A DNA stretch of 64,000 bases from Hyperoplus lanceolatus (Eukaryota > Chordata > Actinopteri > Uranoscopiformes > Ammodytidae). Each line of letters opens with the position of its first letter. Position 1 is the stretch's first letter. Positions 7,592 through 60,630 of this stretch are shown here, in pieces. The notes beneath the pieces were generated by a model, which was not told the origin of the DNA, ran no database searches, and saw nothing but the letters and a program-made list of their open reading frames with translations. The position numbers and the translations under genes are program-made. Location: contig CM049402.1 of the NCBI GenBank assembly GCA_026929865.2, forward strand, positions 11,223,501 to 11,287,500, written 5' to 3'.

Positions 7592-10172
7592 ATGGCTGTG
7601 ACGGCGGGATGCTCTTACAGTGTAAAGGAGAACGTGCCTTTTTCTTTGTATTTAATTATTTTCGTACTGAGTGGCCTTACACATGCACACATTCGTTATT
7701 CCATTCCGGAGGAGCTGGAGAACGGGGCACTTGTCGGGGACATCGTCCGGGATTTGGGTTTGGACCTGAGAAAACTTTCCAGCCGACGAATCCGGATCAC
7801 GTCAGACAGTGGCCGAAGATATTTCAACATCAATCACAAAACAGGGAAGCTGGTGGTGAGTGACCGCATTGACCGCGAGACACTTTGTGAATTCAGTGGC
7901 ACCTGTTCACGCAACCTGGAGGTGGTCTTAGAGAATCCACTGGAGGTGCACAACGTGGAAGTAGAGATTTTGGACGTGAACGATAACGCACCACAGTTCC
8001 CGCGAGATGAATATCAGCTCGAGGTGTCGGAGTCCGCCCTCACCGGGTCGCGGTTCCACATCGAAGGAGCTCAGGACGCAGATGACGGCTCCAACTCTGT
8101 GAAGCAGTACCGCCTCAGCCCCAACGACCACCTCACCATGGACTCTGTTAAGCCCTTTTCCAATCATAAACACATCGAGCTCATTCTCAAAAGGCCATTT
8201 GACCGCGAGCAGATTCCCCTTCATGAGCTTATCCTGACAGCAATGGATGGAGGAACCCCACAACGTACTGGCACGGCCAAAATCAATGTACGTATCCTTG
8301 ATGCTAATGACAACGTGCCTGCGTTTGACAGCTCCGTGTACAAAGTAAAAGTATTTGAAAACTCTCCCAAGGGTGCTATTGTGATCAAGTTAAATGCGAC
8401 AGACCCCGATGAGGGCTCAAATGGGGAAGTGTTTTACTCCTTCAGCAGTTACACGCCAGAGAGAGTCAGACAGATGTTTTCCATGGACACAGTCACAGGG
8501 GAGATTCGTGTGAAAAACAACATTGACTATGAGGAGACAAACTCATATGAAATGTACATACAGGCGATGGACAAGGGACCGGCTCCCGTGGCAGGACAAT
8601 GTAAAGTAGTTGTAGAAGTTTTGGATGTCAATGACAACATTCCTGAGATTGTACTGTCTTCACTCTCCAGCCCTGTACGTGAGGATGCCCGGGCTGACAC
8701 GGTAGTAGCATTGATCAGTGTGAACGACCATGACTCTGGACCAAATAAACAAGTTACCCTGGAGATCATGCCCCATTTGCCTTTTAAGATCAAGTCCTTC
8801 CGGAACCACTACACAATCGTCACATCGGCTTTCCTGGACCGGGAAAGCATCCCATCCTACAATGTCACCGTCAACGCTGTGGATGGAGGCACCCCACCAC
8901 TGTCATCTCGCATGACCTTTAAGGTGGACGTCGCAGATGTGAATGACAACCCACCTCGTTTTGAACAGACATCGTATACTGTGTATATTACAGAGAACAA
9001 TGCCCCCGGTGCACCCCTGTGTGTTGTTAAGGCCACCGATGCTGATGCTGCAGAAAACGCACGCATCACTTATACCGTTCTAAATGACAACAACCATGGT
9101 ATCCCAGTAACCAGCTATGTCAGCGTCAAACCTAACACAGGTGAGGTCTATGCCCCGCGAGCCTTCGACTTTGAGAAGCTGAGAGAGTTCCACGTTCAGG
9201 TTAAAGCCCAGGACAATGGTGTGCCCCCCCTTAGCCGTGTGGCCACAGTGTATGTTTACATCATGGATCAGAATGACCACACGCCCAGGATAGTTTACCC
9301 ACCTGCCAACGGGAGCCGCACCACTGAGACACTTATGAAAAACGCTGAAGCAGGAGTGTTGGTCAGCAAGGTGACAGCGTGGGATGGCGATGCAGGGCAG
9401 AATGCTTGGCTGCTCTATGCTCTGGAGCAGACCAACGCAGACTTTGACCTGTTCAAAGTGCATGAGCACACGGGCGAGATCCGCACCACGAGGCGAGTCA
9501 TTGAGGATAACTCCACCTCCTTCGCTCTGACGGTGCTCGTGTACGATAACGGCTTACCACCGCTTTCCTCCACCGCCACCATCCACGTGCATGTGATGGA
9601 GCTGCCGCCAAAGTTGACCCCCGACCCCAAGCGCATCATCAGGCCCAACAGCCCGTTAATGTTTTCCAATGTCACCATCTACCTCATTATTGCCCTCAGT
9701 GCCACAACCTTTGTGTTCCTGGTCACCATCTTTGTACTGGCTATCGTGCGATGCCATGCGTACTGCACCCAGCCTGGCTCCTGCTCTCCATGTTGCGTGT
9801 CCAAGAAGAGCGTTCCAGAGGGAGGCACCGCGGCGGGTGGGGGTGGTGGAGGAAGAGCTGCAGGTGGAGGGGGGGGGTGGAGGTGCAGGTGGTGGAGGTG
9901 CAGGTGCAGGGCAACCGAACAGCAATGTGGCCGCACGCCGGGACCTCAAAGTGGAGCCGCATTATATTGAAGTGCGGGGAAATGGGTCATTGACAAAAAC
10001 GTACTGTTACAAGACATGTCTGACCGCCACGTCAGGAAGTGACACTTTTATGTTCTACAACACAGGACGGCCGCACAGTGGCACCTGGGGCTCGGGCTAC
10101 GTCACCAGCCACAGCGGACAGAGCCAGTTATTTGTACGGCGTCTCAGTATGCCAGACGCCACTGCCATTCAG
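7592..10172 (+). CDS. pcdhac2: Protocadherin alpha C2 variable exon (frame change in a G run)
   Basis: A neuronal cell-surface adhesion protein of the clustered protocadherin family, type alpha C2. The exon encodes a signal peptide (about residues 1-32), six cadherin repeats with calcium-binding DxNDN linkers (near residues 128, 237, 345, 449 and the variant DQNDH near 559), the EC1 Cys-x5-Cys loop (LCEFSGTC) and a membrane span at about 696-719. The tail piece RGNGSLTKTYCYK and the following SGSDTFMFYNTG are very close to mammalian PCDHAC2, which supports the subtype. The exon ends in phase 0 after ATTCAG at a GTGTGT donor (10173) and joins the constant exon at 13363. Odd point: the N-terminal frame runs to 9868, but the conserved tail is one base out after the nine-G run at 9869-9877, inside a glycine-rich segment. 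One G too many would explain it, so a sequencing error or a polymorphism is likelier than a dead gene. No CSE-like box is seen upstream, as expected for C2-type promoters. Confidence 0.93.
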
Positions 10173-34872: not shown

Positions 34873-35335
34873 TTAAAGAAAGAGTCAACCTGAAATGTGT
34901 CTTTCTATCATGCTTTGTCATTGTACATCTGATAATCATTTATGTGATTTGCCAGGAAGTTTTTTCATGTTTGGCATAATGTCTATGGAATAATAAAATT
35001 GTCTTTTTCAATCAAGTACTTTAAAAAAAATCTTTGAACATTATGCATTAGGGTGTATACTAAGTGACTCAATGTGTGGGTGAAGATGAGGCAGGTTTAG
35101 ATGCCAACAGATATTGCTAGCAGGTGTAAAGAGTAAAGTGTTTAACCAGGACGTTTATAAAGCAAGTCTTTCTGAAAACCCTCCTACATATGCCATAGCG
35201 ATTAATGTTAAGCATTTTCTTTTCTGAAAACTCTTGTGCTCACATTAATGGAGTGCCGGGGCATAGGACATTAAATAATTTTAGCATGTAGCATCATGGT
35301 CACTTTGTGGCAATGGTCCTCCTTCTAATCTCAAG

Positions 35336-35356
35336 GTATCTGTCCATGGTGCTGAA
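35336..35356 (+). promoter_or_regulatory. RE1/NRSE site upstream of gamma gene 1
   Basis: The 21-bp site contains CTGTCCATGGTGCTGAA, an exact match to the reverse complement of the core of the canonical REST/NRSF site (TTCAGCACCATGGACAG). It lies about 617 bp before the CSE-like box of gamma gene 1. REST represses neuronal genes in non-neuronal cells and is known to act on Pcdh clusters. Confidence 0.88.
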
Positions 35357-38565: not shown

Positions 38566-39090
38566 GTAGGAACCGTTCAAAGGATTTCATTGTATAAAAT
38601 GCATCTATGAGTTGTTTTGGTGCAGCGTGTTTGTTGACTGTGTTTGTTGAAGTGAACTGTTTACATGAAACACTTTCTCTATTTTGGTAGATGCTTACTT
38701 TGTGTATTACATCATTCATTAATTATATATTGTCTCCTCATTACATTCCATTAGAACTAACCTAATGTCCTTTTATGAAAGTTTTTTTTATATATTATTT
38801 GCATGTATCCACACATAAGTCAGGTCCCATTTTATATTCCATGTTTCGGAATGATAAACTTTAAATATCATTACGCGGAGAAGCAGTTGTTTTGTAGACG
38901 TGTTTCCCGTAATCATCCCTTAACTGCACGTGACTGAAAGGGGCTTCTATTCCTGAGTCAGCCAACCGGTAGCTGTCTGATAGTTTTAGTCTAAAAATCC
39001 GTAATTGTTTGCTTTTTTGAAACTGTTTAAGTCATTATTATAGGATAAGAGCACTATTAAACCTATTTGATCCATCAGCCATATCACAAG

Positions 39091-39644: not shown

Positions 39645-39669
39645 TCTCATGGTGTCGCTGTTGACTGAC
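39645..39669 (+). promoter_or_regulatory. CSE-like promoter element, gamma gene 2
   Basis: The core GGTGTCGCTGTTGACTGAC lies 235 bp before the ATG. A conserved downstream stretch (CAGGCAGTCACCACTCCACC) follows in genes 2-5. Confidence 0.82.
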
Positions 39670-39721
39670 AGAAAACAGGCAGTCACCACTCCACCCACTG
39701 CTACAAAGATATCAGCTGCAG

Positions 39722-39844
39722 ATGTCTAGAAGACCGTTTACATTTTGGCCCACATTTTATCTTCTAGCGTACATTGCCGTGAATGTTTGGATTATTCACT
39801 GTTTTTATGAAAGCTTCAGTTTTTTTTTGACCGGGAATTTCTAG
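39722..39844 (+). other. Upstream open frame in the gamma gene 2 leader
   Basis: An ATG within the conserved leader opens a 40-codon frame ([12 protein letters not shown], then hydrophobic residues) that stops at TAG 39842-39844, before the MGDKG start. The same ATG in genes 4 and 5 stays open and in frame with MGDKG. Whether it is transcribed or translated is unknown. Confidence 0.4.
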
Positions 39845-39879
39845 CTTGTACAGACTAAGGGACGCATCTGTGTGACAAT

Positions 39880-42264
39880 ATGGGAGACAAAGGATTTTCA
39901 GCGCTTCGTCTGATCTTGTGCTTCGGTTCCTTTATTGTTGCGCTGCACATCGTTAATGGAGACCTGAGCTACTCTATTCCAGAAGAGATGAAAAGCGAGT
40001 CTGTTATAGGAAATATAGCCAAAGATCTTGGTCTTGATCTAAGGACCTTATCTTCCCGGAAGGCCCGTGTTGATTTTGAAGGAACACGAAAGCGTTACTG
40101 TGACATTAATCCAAGTACGGGGGATTTTATGACATCGGAGAGGATTGACAGAGAAAGCATTTGCGGCAAGAAACCCTCGTGTGTTGTAAAAGTAGATCTG
40201 GTGTTAGAAAATCCGTTGGAGCTTCATCGTTTAAGTCTTCATATTCAAGATGTAAATGACAACTCACCAAAATTCAAAAAGAATTTAATTGAAATGGAAA
40301 TACGTGAGTCAGCAGACAAAGGTAACCGCTTCCCTATCGAGGAGGCCCATGACGCAGATATAGGTCAAAACGCTGTACAAAGATACAATCTACAGAAGAA
40401 CGATTACTTTATTCTCGCTGTTGACAGCAATAAGGTTGAACTCGAACTTGAAAATAAACTAGATCGAGAGAAACAAAACGAGATTAATTTGCTCCTTACA
40501 GCTCTAGATGGTGGCTCTCCTCAGAGATCGGGCACAGTGGTCATACACGTCACTGTGCTGGATGCTAATGATAACGCCCCAGTGTTTAGCCAGGACATTT
40601 ATAAAGCCAGTCTCCCTGAAAACTCTCCTCTAGATACTGTAGTGATTAATGTTAGTGCTACAGACGCAGATGAAGGAATGAACGGATATGTGACATATGA
40701 CTTTGGCCACGTATCTGACGACGATGTTAATGTATTTGCTATCGATCCCAAAACTGGAGAAATAAGAGTAACTGGTGTGATGGACTTTGAAGAAACTAGT
40801 TCTTTTGAAATGAGTGTAGAAGCTAAAGATGGTTTAGGGCTAACCTCGTATGCCAAAGTGTTAATAGATGTCATTGATAAGAATGACAATGCTCCGGCTA
40901 TATACCTGAAATCACTGTCCAATCCTATACCAGAGAACGTGTCACCTGGTACAGAGGTGGGCATCATTAACGTGCAGGATAGAGACTCTGAGACAAACGG
41001 ACAGGTCTGCTGCTCCATTCAACAAGGCGCCCCCTTTAAATTAGTTCCGTCTATTAAAAACTATTATTTTCTGGTGACCACAGGACAACTGGACCGTGAA
41101 CTAGTGTCTGATTACAACATTACAATCACTGCCACTGACGAGGGCTCTCCACCTCTGTCCTCCTCTAAAACTGTTCAGTTATCTGTAGCAGACATCAACG
41201 ACAACCCACCTGTGTTTGAGGAACAGTCCTACAGCGCATATGTGACTGAAAATAACAAACCTGGCTCCACTTTATGTTCCGTTACTGCTCGAGACCCCGA
41301 CTGGAGACAAAACGGTACAGTGATGTATTCTCTGTTACCCGGTGAGGTGAACGGTGCCCCGGTGTCCTCCTATCTGTCTGTTAACGGAGACACGGGGGTG
41401 ATCCTCGCTGTGAGGGCGTTTGATTATGAACAGTTCAGGAGTTTTAAAGTCCACGTGATGGCCAGAGACAACGGTTCTCCTCCGCTCAGCAGCAACGTGA
41501 CCGTCAGTGTGTTCATATCGGATGTGAATGACAACTCTCCTCAGATACTGTACCCAGCCCCGGAGGGCAACTCCTTCATGACCGAGCTGGTCCCCAAAGC
41601 TGCACACGGAGGCTCTCTGTTGTCCAAAGTGATAGCGGTGGACGAAGACTCCGGACAGAATGCCTGGCTGTCCTATCATATAGTAAAATCCACTGATCCG
41701 GGACTTTTCACTATCGGTGTCCACAGTGGAGAGATCAGGACACAGCGGGACATTTCTGAATCTGACAGCATGAAACAGAACCTTATTGTGGCAGTGAAAG
41801 ATAACGGACAGCCCTCTCTCTCTGCCACCTGTTCCATGTATTTACTTATTTCTGATAACTTGGCTGAGGTGCCAGAGCTGAAGGATATTTCATATGATGA
41901 GAAGAACTCCAAGTTAACCTCATATCTGATCATTGCGCTGGTGTCTGTCTCCACCTTTTTCCTGACGTTCATTATCATCATCCTGGGTGTGAGGTTTTGT
42001 CGCAGCAGAAAGCCCAGACTGTTGTTTGATGGAGCAGTGGCCATCCCCAGCGCTTATCTCCCTCCTAATTACGCAGATGTTGACGGCACTGGAACTTTAC
42101 GCAGCACTTACAATTATGACGCCTACCTGACAACGGGTTCTAGAACCAGTGACTTTAAGTTTGTTACATCTTACAATGACAACACGCTGCCTGCTGACCA
42201 GACTCTCAGGAAAAGTCCTTCAGATTTTGTCGATCCGTTCGAGGATTTAGAGGCATCTATAGAG
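39880..42264 (+). CDS. Protocadherin gamma-type variable exon 2
   Basis: A 795-codon variable exon with the same architecture as the first copy: signal peptide, six EC domains, membrane span and cytoplasmic piece to a GAG|GTAGGA donor. The signal [18 protein letters not shown] and EC1-EC3 are very close to copy 3 (about 35 residue differences over the whole frame), so these two arose by a recent duplication. Oddities: an extra cysteine in EC4 (QVCCSIQQG, where others have VRCS), CRSRK instead of CRRRK just after the membrane span, and DEDSG instead of DADSG in EC6. The unspliced frame would end at 42309. Confidence 0.94.
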
Positions 42265-50506: not shown

Positions 50507-52371
50507 AGGCCCTGGCAACCCAAATCCACTAAATCCTTGTAACTATGTTATTTGGGGAGTAAAATGAATGTTAATATGTCTATGAAAGGTTTTAGGAATA
50601 GCTGCCAACCCCCGCAAACATACTTCCATGTCAGTTGGTCGAGCATTTGAAAAATCCTGATTCGAATGTCGCATGACAAGCCGTTTTCACACGCATCTCC
50701 ACTCCAACATACATTGGACTTCTCGTTAGAAAATTTCAAATTCGAATTTTGGCTTGGAGTTTTGTTTTCACACGTCACGCGATTCTTAAAGACAATAAAA
50801 ACAATTCTATGCCATCTCTCTGGTGCCGCGCAAGTGATACAGACAGTCTCTTTGCGCCTGAGCCTACACTCAAAGCCCCGTCTGAGCGAAGCAGCGCGCA
50901 CCCCGGTGAAACACTGTGATGGTGACGTTCACAGTGAGCCCTCGCCGAGCCGCCGTGCAGAAAAACTATGTGGTTTAAGACTAAATGATCACCGGGGATT
51001 CCTGCATGTTAACGTTGCAGAGGGGACATGCTTTCACGAGCCGATTGCATGTCCCGAGCCCTGATACACAGAGACATATGTCTCCTAACTGACTGCGCGA
51101 CGTCGATCGCTGCCCCGCTTCATGCCTCTGACACGTCGACTCACAACATAATGAGTCGAGGCTTTGAATTCAGTGCTGGGGATGTGGGGCCATTTCACGT
51201 GCCTCGTTTTCCTCTCGTCACTTCGTTCTCTATCCAAGCACACACACCTCTGTCCGGCCGCATCTGAGTGCGCAGCCAGTGCTCCACCCAAAAAAATAAA
51301 AAACAAGTTGGACACAAGCCCTGAAGCTTAATGATCGCTCTGGTAACGGTCAGTCCATAACTGGACGCTGAATATTAGACCCCGAATATAAAACGACCCG
51401 ACTTTTTACGACCTATTCCCAGGGGGAAACCCCTTCTTATAGGCTAATCGGCCCAATACGGCATGTGTCACCGCTGCATGTAACAATATTGCATTGGTGA
51501 TGCATTTTTTTTTAATCAATGTAGCGAGTTATTATTGAAGTGCAGGCAGAGCTTCTTTTTTGTCAGCACTCCCTTCTGAGAATATGTTTCCGCGGCTATG
51601 CCTGTAGCGTACTTCAACAGCGAGTCTCCACACTGTTGAACCGTAGCCTATATCGCATCAGCTCACGTGATGAGAAACATAATCAGACTCCGTTTTCTCT
51701 CTCTCTCTATTCCCACTCCTGTCCACAGAAAAATCTGATTTTAAAAATACAAATGCCTAAAATAAGATAGGGGATTTTTTGCAAGTTAAATGGGAAATAA
51801 ACTAATAAGAGATAGTCTAACAATAAATATGAGACAGATATTTTTATATATTTTCATTGTGACACAGACACTTGTTTCAAATAGGTTGCGGTTGTGGTGG
51901 GGAAAAAATAGCATACAACTAATTGCAAAGCTAGCCTATATAGGCTAATAATAATAAGTTACTTTCTAGCAGGATGCAAGTGATTCTGAGCTGCGCTCTC
52001 AGCTGTGCCAAAGCATTCACCGTTGCTAGGGAAACCAGCTACCGTCGCAGCCCGTGCAGCAGTGTGAACTGCCAGTCAGGCTCGTTGAGCATTTGCAACA
52101 TTTTCAAGTTTGCGTTTAGTTGTGTGGCGAATCTTTGGTCTGAACTGGGCTAAACCTGTTCAGCACCGTGAGTGAGAGAACGTTCCCTAACAGAACGTTA
52201 TTGACCACGCCCACACCGCCCTGCAAAATGTTCTAGACAGCAAAAAAGCAGTTTTTAGACGAAATTTTATAATATTTATGAAAATAATTTTTTAATTGGA
52301 TAGCTGCAAACAGCTTGTAGAGAAACACAATATTAATGTCATATATTTAGGTCTCTGGGTTGCCAGGGCCT
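50507..52371. mobile_element. Non-autonomous TTAA-flanked DNA element, 1,865 bp
   Basis: Perfect 16-bp inverted ends (AGGCCCTGGCAACCCA on the left and its reverse complement on the right) are each bordered by TTAA (50503-50506 and 52372-52375). The matching DNA before genes 2 and 3 reads straight across the site (CTTATTAAGAAAG), which gives an empty-site comparison. TTAA targets are used by piggyBac and Kolobok transposons. I see no transposase in either strand, so it is a non-autonomous copy. It carries a GC-rich interior (about 50820-51260) unlike its AT-rich surroundings. Confidence 0.88.
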
Positions 52372-52843: not shown

Positions 52844-55228
52844 ATGGGAGACAAAGGATGTTCCGCGCTTCGTCCGATCGTGTGCTTCGCTTCCTTTATT
52901 GTAGCGCTGCACCTCGTTAATGGAGACCTGAGCTACACTATTCCAGAAGAGATGAAACGGGAGTCTGTTATAGGAAATATAGCCAAAGATCTTGGCCTTG
53001 ATCTAAGGACCTTTTCTTCCCGGAAGGCCCGTGTTGATTTTGAAGGAACACGTAAGCGTTACTGTGACATTAGTCCAAGTACGGGGGATTTGATCACATC
53101 GGAGAGAATTGACAGAGAAAGTCTTTGCGGCAAGAAACCCTCTTGTGTTTTTAAAGTAGATATGGTGTTAGAAAATCCTCTTGAGCTGCATCGCATAAAT
53201 CTTCATATTCAAGATGTTAACGACAACTCACCAAGATTCAATGATAATTTGATTGACATGGAAATAAGGGAGTCAGCTGAAAAGGGTAACCGCTTCTCTA
53301 TCGAGGAGGCCCATGACGCAGATATAGGTCAAAATGCTGTTCAAAAGTACAACCTACAGAAGAACGACAACTTTATTCTCGCGGTTGGCAGCAACCATGT
53401 AGAACTCGTACTTGAAAATAAACTTGATCGAGAGAAAAAAAAAGAGATTAATTTGCTTCTCACAGCTTTAGATGGTGGCTCTCCTCAGAGATCGGGCACA
53501 GTGGTCATACACGTCACTGTGCTGGATGCTAATGATAACGCCCCAGTGTTTAGCCAGGATGTGTATAAAGCCAGTCTCCCTGAAAACTCTCCTCTAGATA
53601 CCATAGTGATTAATGTTAGTGCTACAGACGCAGATGAAGGAATGAACGGAGATGTTACATATCACTTTGGCCACGTGTCTGATGGCGAAGTTAATGTGTT
53701 TTCAATTGATCCTAAAACTGGAGAAATTAGAATAACTGGTGTGATTGATTATGAAGAAATAAGTTCATATGAAATGACAGTGAAAGCTAAAGATGGTTTA
53801 GGACTAACCTCGTATGCCAAATTGTTAATTGATGTAACTGATACGAATGACAACGCTCCGGTTATATATCTGAAATCATTGTCTGACCCCATACCCGAGA
53901 ACGTGTCACCTGGTACAGAGGTTGGCATTATTAACGTGCAGGATAGAGATTCTGAGAATAACAGACAGGTCCGCTGCTCCATTCAACAAGGCGCCCCCTT
54001 TAAATTAGTTCCTTCTATTAAAAACTATTATTCTCTGGTGACCACAGGACACCTGGACCGTGAACTACTGTCTGATTACAACATTACAATCACTGCCACT
54101 GACGAGGGCTCTCCACCTCTGTCCTCCTCTAAAACTGTTCAGTTATCTGTAGCAGACATCAACGACAACCCACCTGTGTTTGAGGAACAGTCCTACAGCG
54201 CATATGTGACTGAAAATAACAAACCCGGCTCCACTTTATGTTCCGTTACTGCTAGAGACCCGGACTGGAGACAAAACGGTACAGTGATTTATTCTTTGTT
54301 ACCCGGTGAGGTGAACGGTGCCCCGGTATCCTCCTATCTGTCTGTTAACGGAGACACGGGAGTGGTCCACGCTGTGAGGGCGTTTGATTATGAACAGTTC
54401 AGGAGTTTTAAAGTCCACGTGATGGCCAGAGACAACGGTTCTCCTCCGCTCAGCAGCAACGTGACCGTTGGTGTGTTCATATCGGATGTGAATGACAACT
54501 CTCCTCAGATACTGTACCCCGCCCCGGAGGGCAATTCCTTCATGACCGAGCTGGTCCCCAAAGCTGCACACGGAGGCTCTCTGGTGTCCAAAGTGATAGC
54601 GGTGGACGCAGACTCCGGACAGAACGCCTGGCTGTCCTATCATATAGTCAAATCCACTGATCCGGGACTTTTCACTATCGGTCTCCACAGTGGAGAGATC
54701 AGGACACTGCGGGACATTTCTGAATCTGACAGCATGAAACAGAACCTTATTGTGGCAGTGAAAGATAACGGACAGCCCTCTCTCTCTGCCACCTGTTCCA
54801 TGTATTTACTTATTTCTGATAACTTGGCTGAGGTGCCAGAGCTGAAGGATATTTCATATGATGAGAAGAACTCCAAGCTAACCTCTTATCTGATCATTGC
54901 GCTGGTTTCTGTCTCCACCTTTTTCCTGACATTCATTATCATCATCCTGGGTGTGAGGTTTTGTCGCAGGAGAAAGCCCAGACTGTTGTTTGATGGAGCA
55001 GTGGCCATCCCCAGCGCTTATCTCCCTCCTAATTACGCAGATGTTGACGGCACTGGAACTTTACGCAGCACTTACAATTATGACGCCTACCTGACAACGG
55101 GTTCTAGAACCAGTGACTTTAAGTTTGTGACATCTTACAATGACAACACGCTGCCTGCTGACCAGACTCTGAGGAAAAGTCCTTCAGACTGTGTCGATCC
55201 GTTCGAGGATTTAGAGGCATCTATAGAG
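52844..55228 (+). CDS. Protocadherin gamma-type variable exon 5
   Basis: A 795-codon variable exon starting [15 protein letters not shown], with an in-frame ATG 52 codons upstream (52688) that I do not prefer. EC1-EC3 resemble copy 4, sharing the [17 protein letters not shown] segment and the [15 protein letters not shown] segment. EC4 to tail belongs to the homogenised block. Oddities: SDCVDPFED replaces SDFVDPFED in the cytoplasmic piece, VTVGVF replaces VTVSVF in EC5, and [13 protein letters not shown] replaces [13 protein letters not shown] in EC4. After the shared GAG|GTAGGAACCGTTCAAAG the downstream DNA diverges sharply from copies 1-4, and the unspliced frame runs to 55372 with a different tail. 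Confidence 0.93.
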
Positions 55229-55372: not shown

Positions 55373-56221
55373 TTTTATGTTGGCTGCTTATTTATCAAAT
55401 TACGTCTTTAAATGATTATCTATTTTGCCGGCTTTCTCCTAAACCATGACATTTTCTCTACATCTGAAACTTCAGAAAAAAGTACACTCATAGGGGTCAA
55501 TTATTTAATTTTCATGTCTCAGAGAAATACACTTTCAATTTGATTAATAAACCAATCAGTTCAATATAATATGATATTTAGTTAGTTTGTTTTATAAAAG
55601 TGGATCACTCTAAGCTGGACCAATTTTAAATGAAACGGAAACATTCCATAAAAGCCAACAGAGAACTTGGGCCTCATAGAAAAATTCAATGTGGCAAAAA
55701 GTATTTTGACCAGCAAAGTAGTTATGATTGAAACTTTAAATTTTTTTTTAATGGAGCGTTTTCCTCAGACTGTCATTAGTCTTTGCTTTTACAAGGTTCA
55801 CTTTCATATGTGTTCAGTCTTTGGCATGTGCCACTGATGAGTCACTGACCATCACGTATCATTAAATGAAATAAGGATGGCTGACATTCCTCATATATTG
55901 TAGAGGAACGTCTGAAATGGTTAAAGTGTAAGAATAGGTCATTGTTTTCTTTTGCACGATGGTCTCATAATCTATTTGAAGGTTTTAAAAACACTGGCCA
56001 AGGGATCCCTACACCATTCAATGTGTTTTTTGGTGTTTTGTCCTCCCAATGGTGCCTCCAAGGCAGCTGCCTTGGAGGCAGCGTTAGGAACAACAGTGGT
56101 TATGGTTAGGGTTAGAGTTAGTGCATTCCAGGCAGCTCCAGGCAGCGCTGCATCCATGGCTCCGTTGGGAGGACAAAACACCATTGAGCATGTAATGTTT
56201 TTATTCCCTCAGCCAACCCTT
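55373..56221. other. Diverged spacer unit after gamma gene 5
   Basis: Weak but ordered resemblance to the standard spacer can be followed (for example TTTGGCATGTG, then AAGTGTAAGAATA and TCTATTTGAA), interrupted by a 153-bp palindromic element. No coding sequence. Confidence 0.65.
56031..56183. mobile_element. 153-bp palindromic MITE
   Basis: The left end TGGTGTTTTGTCCTCCCAA and the right end are inverted copies of each other. Inside lies a shorter palindrome (GCCTCCAAGGCAGCTGCCTT, then GGAGGC) and a GGTTAGGGTTAG phrase. The layout matches a small dispersed fish repeat. No target duplication is clear. Confidence 0.7.
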
Positions 56222-56842
56222 AAGGTATCTGTCCATGGTGCTGAAACACTCCTCATGTGCTGAGTCACAACTGCAACTGGATATGTATTTTTCTCCTCTG
56301 CATTTTATCTTAATTTGATTGATAATAGCAGCAATTTTAAATGAATGCAATACAAAGTTTTGAATTGTTGTAATGTACCCAACTCCCAGCTTAGTTTCTC
56401 AATAAAAACACTTTGCCGCGGTTCCTTATTCAAAAATTAAATAACTGTTAGTGAATGTTACAGTTACTCAAAACCACTGGCATTCTCTTTCTCAAACAAT
56501 GATATTGGTTTACTTAAGTCCTGAATATAGCTGCAAAGTAACTTTGATTGAGCTCTTTGGTTAATCATTTACATCTTCAAAGCTGAGCCAGTTCTCTTGA
56601 ATAGATAAAACCGTTTATTCTAATAAGAACATGTAACATTTAGCACTAACTCAGTTCATTTGAAAGTGATTGAATATTATCTCGATATATCTTGAGACTT
56701 CATAAATGATCATTATTGTTTATTTTTTATATAACATAGATCTACTACTACTGTTAAGATGAAGAAGTGTCACCAAAGTGAGGAAAAGTCCTTCAGGCTT
56801 ATCTTAAGTATTTGGTCTTTCAGACCAGTTCCCAGAGGTAGG
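56222..56842 (+). pseudogene. Scar of a deleted gamma protocadherin gene
   Basis: The left part is a recognisable promoter unit: an RE1 site (56225-56245), then TTTTTCTCCTCTGCATT, GATAATAGCAGCAATTTTAA, ACATCTTCAAAGCTGAG and CTTGAGACTTCATAAA in the same order as in the other gamma spacers. Just where the CSE-like box should come (AGAAGTGTCACC, near 56774) the sequence jumps to TGAGGAAAAGTCCTTCAG (56779-56796), an exact 18-base match to the 3' end of the variable exons. A donor-like AGAGGTAGG (56834-56842) then follows after exactly the same 37-base gap as in intact genes. The simplest reading is one gene whose exon, from the promoter to the last 20 codons or so, was deleted. The 37-base gap itself is poorly conserved. 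Confidence 0.72.
56225..56245 (+). promoter_or_regulatory. Orphan RE1/NRSE site of the deleted gene
   Basis: Exact RE1 core CTGTCCATGGTGCTGAA with no intact gene of its own. The next site downstream (57909) serves the following exon. Confidence 0.85.
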
Positions 56843-58047
56843 GCCCAAATATGTTTGTATCTAAGATTTATACTTTAATATGACATTCCACTTGTATTGC
56901 CATGCACTTGTTCAATGGTCTTGTATCTAGATTCCAGTATGCATGGCTAACTGAAGACATTAACTATAATTTGCTTTTTTATGCAAAAAAAAGTTCTGCC
57001 ACAAGCGTCCATTTTCATGGCGTTACCGATACATGTATTCAATAGTAGGTTTGATTTCAGTTTTGTGTGTTTGTGACACGTTTTGTCCTATCTTGATTTA
57101 ATACACGTTCTTCTCTATTCATGGATTGTTTGCCTTTTAAATGCAGCATTAGTTTGTCATTTTTTTAAATTAATTTTTAAATAATCAGTTACTGTATTTT
57201 GTTTAAATGCGTCTAAACACAGTTCAGCTTGTTAACAAGATTTTTCAAAGCAATTCATTTTCAAGCCACATTTATTTCTGGTTTTACTACGCAGCCAGAT
57301 AGGCTTTCACCTGCACACATCCATGTACAGTATATGGGAATGCAGTCCTTCCATTGAGTTGATCACTTGTTATGTGAAATGTTAATTGGTTCCTTTCATC
57401 CAACTAGTTCAAAGAAGCAGTAATACAAGTTTCGAAGTTTGATTTGCAAAACCTATTAGAATCAGAAACTAACCAATCGATTACTGAAGAAAATAAATAT
57501 TTTGTTGACCACAAATTTGAATGCATTTCAAGCGAAAGTTCTACATTCAATGTTATTTGTCAGATTTGGTAATAGTTGGTTCGATACATATGCAGATAAC
57601 TGAGCGTGTTAATGTGGACCTCAGACAATGGCCAACTCCTATACAACTATTCGGAGCACAGAAGTTAAACGCGTTTGTTGTTAACAATCAATTTAATTTA
57701 CAGATGAAATGAAAAAGCCCGGTAGTATAGAATAACTGTGAGAATAAGATACAAGCATTTTGTCGAGCTAATGATGCTTAATATTGGAAAAAGTATTTTC
57801 CATTCTCAATTTATAAATATTCGACTACATACATTATCAAGATCAATCAGTTTTTTTTTTCCAACGAACGGAAACAGTGAAATCTGAGGGTGTTCTCCTC
57901 GCCGTTCAAACGCTGTCCATGGTGCTGAATGGTGTTTTTTTTGTGTTAGCGCCTGTTAAACCAAACGCAACATTGTCCACTAAAATTCTCCTTCACTGTG
58001 TCCTTTAATGCTGGGCTGGTTTTGTTTATTTGTAATATTCTAAACAC
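56843..58047. other. Spacer before the gamma pseudogene
   Basis: AT-rich non-coding DNA with an RE1 site near its end (57909-57929). No exon or mobile element is recognisable. Confidence 0.75.
57909..57929 (+). promoter_or_regulatory. RE1/NRSE site upstream of the gamma pseudogene
   Basis: CGCTGTCCATGGTGCTGAA is a 19-base match to the reverse complement of the canonical RE1, the best match of the set. It is only about 139 bp before the CSE-like box, much closer than in the tandem array. Confidence 0.9.
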
Positions 58048-58072
58048 ACTCACGGCGTCGCTGCTCACTCAC
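58048..58072 (+). promoter_or_regulatory. CSE-like promoter element, gamma pseudogene
   Basis: ACTCACGGCGTCGCTGCTCA keeps the GTCGCT core, about 190 bp before the ATG. Confidence 0.75.
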
Positions 58073-58237
58073 AGATATGAGGAGGTTCATTTCTCCACCC
58101 TCCGCAAAAAATTCATTAGAATAAAAACTAGACCTGCCATTGTTGTAGGAGCGGCGTACCTTCGTTTACCATTACGCTTTGATTAAATCAAATACAAGGA
58201 CTATTTGCGTTTCTGTATCCTCTTTCATGACAACAAA

Positions 58238-60630
58238 ATGGACCGTAAAAAGCAGAAATCGTTGTTGGGGGTTATCTTTGGATTTGTTGTCTTCGTCGAT
58301 ATCACCGCTTCAGACCTCAGCTATTCTGTTCCGGAGGAGATGAGACCCGGATCCATTGTTGGCAATATTGGCAAGGATCTCGGGCTGGAAGTGGGGAAAT
58401 TGGTCACTCGCAAAGCCCGCATTATACCGAAGAGAGCTACCAACGTTACTGCGATATTGATCTGAAAACGGGAAATTTTGTCATCAGGGAAAGATTGACA
58501 GAGAGGAGCTGTGTGGGGAGAAGGTTTCGTGTTTGCTTAAATTTGAATTGGTCCTAGAGAGTCCTTGGAGCTGCACCGCATTTCGCTACCATCCAGGACG
58601 TAAACGACAATGCACCTGTATTTCCGAAGGATACGATCAAACTAGAAATAAGGGAATCAGCTTCAAGGAGCAAGATATCGTGTCAATGAAGCACACAGGA
58701 CGCCGACATCGGACAAAATACGGTTAAACAACATAGTATACAAAATAATGAACATTTTGTTTTATCTGTCCGAGATGACACAGATGGATCTAAGAGCGTC
58801 GAGTTGGTTTTAAACAAAGAGCTTGACCGTGAGAAAGAACACGATATAAATGTATTTATTACTGCCGTTGATGGCGGCAATCCTGAAAGATCTGGAACAA
58901 CCAACATACACGTTACCGTTCTGGATGCTAATGATACCGCCCCACTGTTTGACCAAGCGCTTTACAAAGCCAGTCTACCAGAAAACTCTGCCCTTGGATA
59001 CTGTAGCTCTGTCACAGTAGGTGCCACTGATGCAGACGAGGGGATCAATGGGGAGGTGACATATGAGTTTAGCCGCATCTCAGACAGGGCTAGAAAGGTA
59101 TTCTCGTTAAACGGTAAAACTGGAGAAATAAAAGTAACAGGACCGCTTGATTTCGAAAGTAATTCTAAATATGAAATGCGCATCGATGCCAAAGATGGTT
59201 ATGGACTTTCATCTGATTCAAAAGTAATGATTGATATTACTGATGTGAATGACAACGCTCCAGTGATTTATATGAAATCACTGCTCAACCCCATAGCAGA
59301 GAATGTGCATCCTGGTACGGAGGTGGAAAAATAATTAATGCAAGATAGAGACTCTGAGACGAACGGACAGGTTCGCTGCTCCATTCAACAAGGCGCCCCC
59401 TTTTTAAGTTAATTCCTTCTATTAAAAACTATTATTCTCTTGACCACAGGACAACTGGACCGTGAACTAGTGTCTGATTACAACATTACAATCACTGCCA
59501 CTGACGAGGGCTCTCCTCCTGTCCTCCTCTCTAAAACTGTTCAGTTATCTGTAGCAGACATCAACGACAACCCACCTGTGTTTGAGGAACAGTCCTACAG
59601 CACATATGTTACTGAAAATAACAAACCTGGCTCCACTTTATGTTCTGTTACTGCTCGAGACCCCGACTGGAGACAAAACGGTACAGTGATGTATTCTCTG
59701 TTACCCGGTGAGGTGAATTGCGCCCCGGTGTCCTCCTATCTGTCTGCTAACGGAGACACGGGGGTGATCCACGCTGTGAGGGCGTTTGATTATGAACAGT
59801 TCAGGAGTTTTAAAGTTCACGTGATGGCCAGAGACAATGGTTCTCCTCCGCTCAGCAGCAACGTGACCGTCAGTGTGTTCATATCGGATATGAATGACAA
59901 CTCCCCTCAGATACTGTACCCCGCCCCGGAGGGCAACTCCTTTCCATGACCGAGCTGGTCCCCAAAGCTGCACACGGAGAACCGCAAAATCCAAAGTGAT
60001 AGCGGTGGACGCAGACTCCGGACAGAACGCCTGGCTTTCCTATCATATAGTCAAATCCACTGATCCGGACTTTTCACTATCGGTCTCACGGCGGGAGAGA
60101 TCAGGACACAGCGGGACATTTCTGAATCTGACAGCATGAAACAGAACCTTATTGTGGCAGTGAAAGATAACGGACAGCCCTCTCTCTCTGCCACCTGTTC
60201 CATGTATTTACTTATTTCTGATAACTTGGCTGAGGTGCCAGAGCTGAAGGATATTTCATATGATGAGAAGAATTCCAAGCTAACATCTTATCTGATCATA
60301 GCGCTGGTGTCTGTGTCCACCTTCTTTCTGACATTCATTATCATCATCCTGGGTGTGAGGTTTTGTCGCAGGAGAAAGCCCAGAATGTTGTTTGATGGAG
60401 CAGTCGCCATCCCCAGCGCTTATCTCCCTCCTAATTACGCAGATGTTGACGGCACTGGAACTTTACGCAGCACTTACAATTATGACGCCTACCTGACAAC
60501 GGGTTCTAGAACCAGTGACTTTAAGTTTGTGACATCGTACAATGACAACACGCTGCCTGCTGACCAGACTCTGAGGAAAAGTCCATCAGACTTTGCTGAG
60601 GTTTTTGGAGACTTTGATGCTTCTCCTGAG
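58238..60630 (+). pseudogene. Protocadherin gamma-type variable exon 6, frame-broken
   Basis: The exon begins with a good start and signal peptide (MDRKKQKSLLGVIFGFVVFV) and EC1 (DLSYSVPEEMRPGSIVG). Its domain order is that of a full variable exon, ending at a TCTCCTGAG|GTAAGG donor (60630/60631). The frame changes repeatedly, by my reading about ten times, mostly single-base losses or gains between about 58425 and 60080. The longest intact stretches are 58804-59330 (EC2-EC3), 59440-59945 (EC4-EC5) and 60136-60630 (EC6 end to tail). EC1-EC3 are distant from copies 1-5. The part from about 59340 is the homogenised block, but the last 40 bases return to a different tail (DFAEVFGDFDASPE). Between breaks the residues look constrained, so either the loss is recent or this stretch is poorly sequenced. 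Confidence 0.82.

Follow-up and report, generated by a model that had tools for sequence, protein, structure and literature searches.

A relic of a deleted protocadherin gene between variable exons 5 and 6 of a gamma-type array in Hyperoplus lanceolatus

What lies between variable exons 5 and 6 of a protocadherin array in the ammodytid fish Hyperoplus lanceolatus? The window analysed here is a stretch of 64,000 nucleotides, positions 11223501-11287500 of contig C8 (CM049402.1), taken from a genome of 807 Mb in 527 contigs; features beyond its end are given in joined coordinates, which run through the window and a 120 kb downstream extension. The array in which the window lies is predicted to be a gamma-type clustered protocadherin array. 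Members of such arrays serve as neuronal identity tags in brain cell recognition. Twenty exons of one broad family, e1 to e20, all stand on the + strand at 36181-130510 (joined coordinates), with further exons, more distant in sequence, downstream of them, and this tandem arrangement on one strand with repeated spacers is that of gamma-type variable exon units. The best PDB match of exon 3 is protocadherin gamma B4 (E = 2.5e-195), and the Pfam domains Cadherin, Cadherin_2 and Cadherin_C_2 were found in exons 3 and 5, the two that were examined. The intact neighbouring exons code for a protocadherin ectodomain, a transmembrane part and a short cytoplasmic part and then end in a splice donor, which is present at all 20 exon ends.

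Two types of exon tail divide the array. Exons 1-5 share one type with a 14-residue ending, in which e5 has C in place of the first F, and e6-e20 share the other, with endings that are variants of DFAEVFGDCDGSPE. The feature that concerns us here, which we call the relic, sits at the boundary of the two types. Upstream of it is variable exon 5 (52844-55228, + strand), which is intact, and downstream is variable exon 6 (e6; 58240-60630, + strand), a pseudogene with six in-frame stops in its protein match (three TGA, one TAG and two TAA). Exon 6 has an RE1 of its own, separate from that of the relic, at 57913-57929 on the - strand, 327 nt before the exon start. Elsewhere in the array, the spacer of gene 5 is split at 50514-52371 by about 1.9 kb of extra DNA, which lies between the RE1 part and the promoter part, and the gene is still open despite this addition. 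Exon 11 (79973-82361, joined coordinates) has a frame break near query residue 375 and is either a pseudogene or the site of an assembly error. A distant exon at 146112-153107 (joined coordinates), whose pieces match query residues 18-487 and then 474-773, is apparently split by about 4.6 kb, as by an insertion.

The left side of the relic, 56205-56709 on the + strand, has the form of a promoter spacer of the type found in genes 2-5 (at 39071, 42790, 46488 and 50171). An nhmmer model built from the spacers of genes 2, 3 and 4, with which 184 kb were searched at E up to 0.01, aligns with the relic collinearly over model positions 1-525 of 815 and scores 103.6 bits, a value reached after a bias correction of 40.1 (E = 2.3e-31). 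A previous description of this DNA, the sequence-only reading, had reported an RE1 followed by phrases in the order of intact spacers, and had named a lack of significant similarity left of 56774 as an outcome that would speak against it; the RE1 17-mer is exact, the order holds throughout 56205-56709, and the similarity is significant. The eight places that the model finds in the 184 kb are the three spacers from which it was built, the gene 5 spacer in two pieces, the relic, the RE1 neighbourhood of gene 1, over 56 nt only (E = 5.6e-8), and a promoter-box stretch of e6 (E = 4.8e-4). Similarly, blastn against the intact spacers gives 77% identity both at 56205-56342 (E = 1.8e-23) and at 56567-56619 (E = 1.5e-5). 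Over 495-519 aligned bases, the relic spacer is 64-66% identical to the spacers of genes 2-5, about equally for all four, and these are 87-98% identical among themselves. A genome search with 56222-56842, in which very common words were skipped and six candidates scored, returned six places including the query itself; all are within this array, and the relic spacer is in this respect unlike a dispersed repeat. Before the spacer, at 56031-56183, there is a short element that resembles a small DNA transposon; its ends are inverted repeats of 26 bases (92%), and a palindrome lies inside it.

The zone of the left breakpoint is 56710-56771 (+ strand). Its last 23 nt, 56749-56771, fit the spacer just 5' of the CGCT box and are in spacer register, but they are not significant alone (p = 0.08, 0.13, 0.08 and 0.31 for four spacers, with 1000 shuffles each), and the rest of the zone is not confidently alignable. 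In genes 2-4 the bases next after the matching stretch run into the CGCT box, in gene 2 about 224 bases before the ATG. For the mouse, a CSE with a CGCT box has been placed about 200 bp before the start codon (PMC4978886). In the alignment with the spacers of genes 2-4, the CGCT promoter box is absent from the relic.

Between the left and right sides are seven nucleotides, 56772-56778 (+ strand), that can be assigned confidently to neither. Their exon-side score of 11 does not exceed that of shuffled sequence (null mean 12.7), and the junction shows no clear microhomology. The sequence then changes to an exon stub at 56779-56837 (+ strand), identified with nhmmer and made up of an 18-nt core (56779-56796), a 38-nt gene-specific tail (56797-56834) and a final GAG; the splice donor GTAGGG follows at 56838-56843 on the same strand. 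The core is found unchanged in 13 of the 20 exon ends and with one base different in the other seven, the pseudogene e6 being counted among the 20. It is separated from the donor by 37 nt, the spacing seen at every one of the 20 exon ends. Both the abrupt switch to an exact 18-base copy of the exon end and the donor-like sequence at the spacing of intact genes had been pointed out in the sequence-only reading, and both are confirmed here. Two of the 20 exons, e17 and e19, have the same donor as the stub, GAGGTAGGG (56835-56843), and GAGGTAGG occurs in 12 of the 20. The expected number of exact 18-mers on one strand of 64 kb is 9.9e-7, and the best match in 200 dinucleotide shuffles of 55373-58240 is 15 of 18. 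The 18-mer thus beats chance, and the second outcome named as counter-evidence, a match no better than in shuffled sequence, is likewise absent.

Which subfamily does the stub belong to? Of the 37 bases after the 18-mer, 18-21 agree with e6-e20 and 12-13 with e1-e5, and among 63,672 other windows scores as high occur in 0.03% with the e6-e20 profile and in 12% with the e1-e5 profile. In nhmmer searches, a profile of the e7-e20 tails that includes the donor scores 27.8 bits at 56779-56844 (E = 2.5e-7), and the e1-e5 tail profile scores 12.0 bits at the stub (E = 0.017), from the core only. The best scores in 40 shuffles of 46,421 spacer bases are 8.4 bits for the downstream type and 10.7 bits for type 1-5, and therefore only the downstream-type match is well clear of chance. 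The stub translates as RKSPSGLS*VFGLSDQFPE, with an in-frame TAA stop and with VFG, D, P and E placed as in the downstream type. At the 21 sites where the majorities of the two types differ, the stub has the downstream base at eight, the type 1-5 base at four and neither at nine; it agrees with the downstream majority at 44 of 65 positions and with the type 1-5 majority at 40 of 65, and the two majorities agree with each other at 44 of 65. The relic has the spacer type of genes 1-5, with whose spacers and exon ends the sequence-only reading had proposed to align it, but not their tail, where 27.8 bits stand against 12.0. A full-exon model, run with the 20 exons masked, finds three places in 131 kb, namely the stub (E = 0.0051), an alpha-side exon at 7646-9418 and a fragment at 35137-35210 to which we return below. 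For the DNA 3' of the stub (56838-57900), a genome search returned the query itself alone, and the 3' flank models of both types have no match at the stub. The downstream-flank model does match weakly at 57779-57938 (7.2 bits with a bias of 9.1, E = 0.00099), where it overlies the RE1 of exon 6, about 0.9 kb away. Since the flank is without matches, the right side of the relic rests on 59 exon bases and the donor.

The collinear remnants flank one gap, and its two sides differ in subfamily type. Aligned with gene 2, the gap covers 39647-42205, or 2,559 nt, if the spacer match is taken to end at 56771, and 2,610 nt with an end at 56709. Neither the promoter box nor the ATG is present, and of about 2,385 exon bases only 59 survive (a loss of ~97%). 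What remains has no coding capacity, with the exon start gone, 59 exon bases left and a stop in frame. These alignments bear out the view that a gene was lost from the array, that the CSE-like box, the start and nearly all of the exon were removed, and that the spacers and exon ends align with the relic collinearly around a single gap. The further claim of a single deletion of roughly 2.5 kb stands in part: the size is right for a one-gene event, but one event is not proven, and the downstream-type tail also fits a longer deletion.

We conclude that the relic is the stump of a deleted protocadherin gene, whether by a one-gene or by a longer deletion (probability about 0.88). We consider it rather probable that a single gene, consisting of a gamma-type protocadherin variable exon and a promoter of its own, was lost here by one deletion. 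The alignment shows directly that there is a gap and where it lies; the history as one event, its mechanism and the sequence of steps we infer as follows. The gene would once have occupied a place between exons 5 and 6, until about 2.6 kb were deleted and its upstream spacer was fused to a point 59 bases before the exon end, with the left break some 10 to 60 bases 5' of the CGCT promoter box. The RE1 and the donor would have been spared, and the promoter box would have gone together with the start codon and about 97% of the exon. The breakpoints are at non-matching positions of the repeat unit, and therefore unequal crossing-over between aligned units does not explain the loss. We propose instead a deletion of the end-joining or replication-slippage type within one repeat unit, after which the stub would have decayed. 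Its tail and its stop speak for a long decay.

The lost gene would have carried the tail type of the downstream genes. It probably branched before genes 2-5 diversified, because its spacer is about equally far from all four, an argument to be read with caution: gene 1 has an exon and a tail of the 1-5 type, yet its spacer resembles the model less than that of the relic does. The exactness of the 18-mer might suggest that the deletion is recent; we rejected this, as all 20 exon ends have this 18-mer with at most one change. It lies in an exon stretch that is near-identical across the array, and the sharp drop in similarity after it falls where the subfamilies differ; its exactness is therefore no clock for the deletion. 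Regional homogenisation of exon 3' ends has been described in fugu and zebrafish (PMC1852091). The relic pins down one gene-loss event in the array, with a visible junction.

How firmly can the loss be assigned to one gene? If one gene of the 1-5 type had simply been deleted, a tail of the other subfamily would not be expected, and the tail therefore counts against that simple form. The main rival, which we regard as possible but distinctly less probable, is a longer deletion across two genes, from a 1-5 type spacer to a downstream-type exon end, with the loss of both; from the unit lengths in the array, it would have measured at least about 6 kb. It accords with a spacer and a tail of different subfamilies and with the location of the relic at the border of the 1-5 and 6-20 tail types, but it requires one more lost gene. 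A tree of the first 1000 exon bases, in which e6, e7, e12 and both outgroups have long branches and several forks are unsupported, joins e1-e5 in one group (100/100) and places this group among the other exons. A constraint that keeps e6-e20 in one group is rejected when two outgroups are used (p-AU 0.0245) but not when either of them is used alone (p-AU 0.269 and 0.285). The tree thus favours, without settling it, a history in which the downstream tail type would be ancestral and a single early-branching gene would be enough to account for the relic; this weighs against the longer deletion, though not firmly. Spacer similarity, for its part, does not follow the exons closely, the spacer of gene 1 matching the model over 56 nt only. 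On balance, we place the one-gene deletion ahead.

Three further alternatives can be weighed. That the exon end is a copy, a short segment brought by insertion or conversion into a spacer in which no exon had ever stood, seems improbable to us. Such copying would draw on exon 3' parts that are very alike in the array, with an unchanged 18-mer in 13 of 20 ends and with 92-98% identity to the majority still seen across the 3' half of the adjacent pseudogene e6; yet a copy should resemble its source, and the tail matches none of the 20 exon ends at more than 21 of 37 bases. Moreover, the stub is in the expected place, order and strand, after a spacer broken off before the promoter box. An assembly misjoin that collapsed a real gene might be suspected in an array as repetitive as this one, but we judge it very unlikely, as the stub tail and the spacer have both diverged from the other copies, the stub has a stop of its own where a collapsed intact gene would leave an intact tail, and exons 1-5 assemble as open frames. 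Finally, that AT-rich DNA resembles an exon end by chance we regard as negligible. Past the 18-mer, the agreement with the downstream tails amounts to only 18-21 of 37 bases, and the 12.0 bits against the 1-5 tails are little above the best of 40 shuffles (10.7); however, against the downstream tails the score is 27.8 bits with a best shuffle of 8.4, and the place and spacing of the stub are those expected of an exon end.

The deletion reading leaves the array with an orphan RE1/NRSE at 56229-56245 (- strand), with both half-sites complete. The 17-mer match, which reads TTCAGCACCATGGACAG on the - strand, is identical to those at 35340, 39095, 42814, 46512 and 57913, and its half-sites, TTCAGCACC and GGACAG, are two bases apart. 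The RE1/NRSE consensus is TTCAGCACCACGGACAGCGCC (PMC3529185); the last four consensus positions, which have been called less conserved (PMC4430910), do not match as a block at 56229-56245. The block 56226-56252 equals the gene 2-5 majority at 26 of 27 positions, and in the relic spacer outside 56227-56247 the matches are 323 of 496 (~65%). Retention of the RE1 at 20 of 21 positions has a probability of ~1e-4 against the whole spacer and of 0.004 against its own neighbourhood (88 of 114), figures that treat all 21 positions as kept, though 20 are. Retention of the block is compatible with a putative site still in use. It falls short of showing use, because the comparison is with paralogues and the exon core of the stub is kept too. 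An intact RE1 as proof of function was rejected, the exon core in the stub being equally unchanged; the idea of the sequence-only reading, an orphan silencer that may still act on its neighbours, thus gains no evidence of function from the intact sequence.

With up to three mismatches allowed, 25 RE1-like sites precede e20 for 20 exons: 14 of the 20 spacers have one, five have more than one and one has none. A gene-free RE1 may therefore not be special to the relic. Since RE1-like sites outnumber exons and the block stands at 26 of 27 positions against ~65% in the spacer, it is conceivable, though doubtful, that the orphan RE1 has been kept by selection, as one of several gene-free silencers that would help to keep the array or its promoters off. 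Four multi-RE1 spacers have two or three RE1-like sites each (92302/92972, 97156/97846/98186, 113840/114898 and 119090/120002, joined coordinates). All four have one site about 1.5 kb (1503-1535 bases) before the next start, and three of the four have another 130-314 bases after the previous exon. The extra sites in these spacers would be either duplications or traces of lost genes; exon and tail models at E up to 1 find no exon remnants in the other multi-RE1 spacers with the exception of one at 90479, detected by the tail model only. For clustered protocadherin genes, NRSE/RE1 sites have been described (PMC8096226), and there as here the RE1 belongs to a protocadherin gene unit. In contrast to those sites, the RE1s here sit in spacers and are known from sequence, and that of the relic is without its own gene; a word search of the text of PMC8096226 finds no mention of fish or zebrafish. 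The relic offers a natural test case, in which a candidate silencer site has been parted from its gene by evolution.

The relic is not unique in the array, which also holds a second exon-end relic, a mid-exon fragment, the decayed e6 and the multi-RE1 spacers. The second exon-end relic is in the spacer between exons 13 and 14, at 90479-90509 in joined coordinates (L009:6479-6509; C8:11313979-11314009), and its 31 nt are a near-perfect match to the downstream tail with its donor (E = 3.4e-5). Two pieces of the DNA after it (90480-90618 and 92139-93037) match the end of exon 14 and the flank 3' of that exon, with about 1.5 kb of unrelated sequence between them. Like the stub at 56779, it is an exon end with a donor and without the rest of the exon; unlike the stub, which has a promoter spacer on its left, it has the 3' flank of the preceding exon there. 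It is probably the younger of the two, given its near-perfect tail match and the exon 14-related DNA that follows.

Relics occur in mammalian protocadherin arrays as well, and the one described here documents gene loss clearly but is otherwise ordinary, one more case of a familiar sort. In the anole lizard, 14 protocadherin pseudogenes have been reported, half of them with a single-nucleotide insertion or deletion (PMC2764143), and degeneration has been described in fugu (PMC1852091). Common to these and the relic is a dead variable exon that gene turnover has left within a tandem array. The relic differs from both in that only the upstream spacer and the last 59 exon bases with the donor remain; among the literature matches listed, no title or abstract opening describes a fusion of a spacer to an exon end.

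The other two remnants are of different kinds. The pseudogene e6 is 92-98% identical to the array majority in its 3' half. Of its 20 indel runs against that majority, 18 are not multiples of three, a count that overstates the frame breaks, as the same comparison gives six of seven in exon 7, which is open throughout, and three of five in exon 11. The fragment at 35137-35210 comprises 74 bases that match the middle of an exon (E = 2.8e-9 with the full-exon model) and is a further relic. It is 77-85% identical to the same place in exons 1-5 and precedes the RE1 of gene 1 by about 130 bases.
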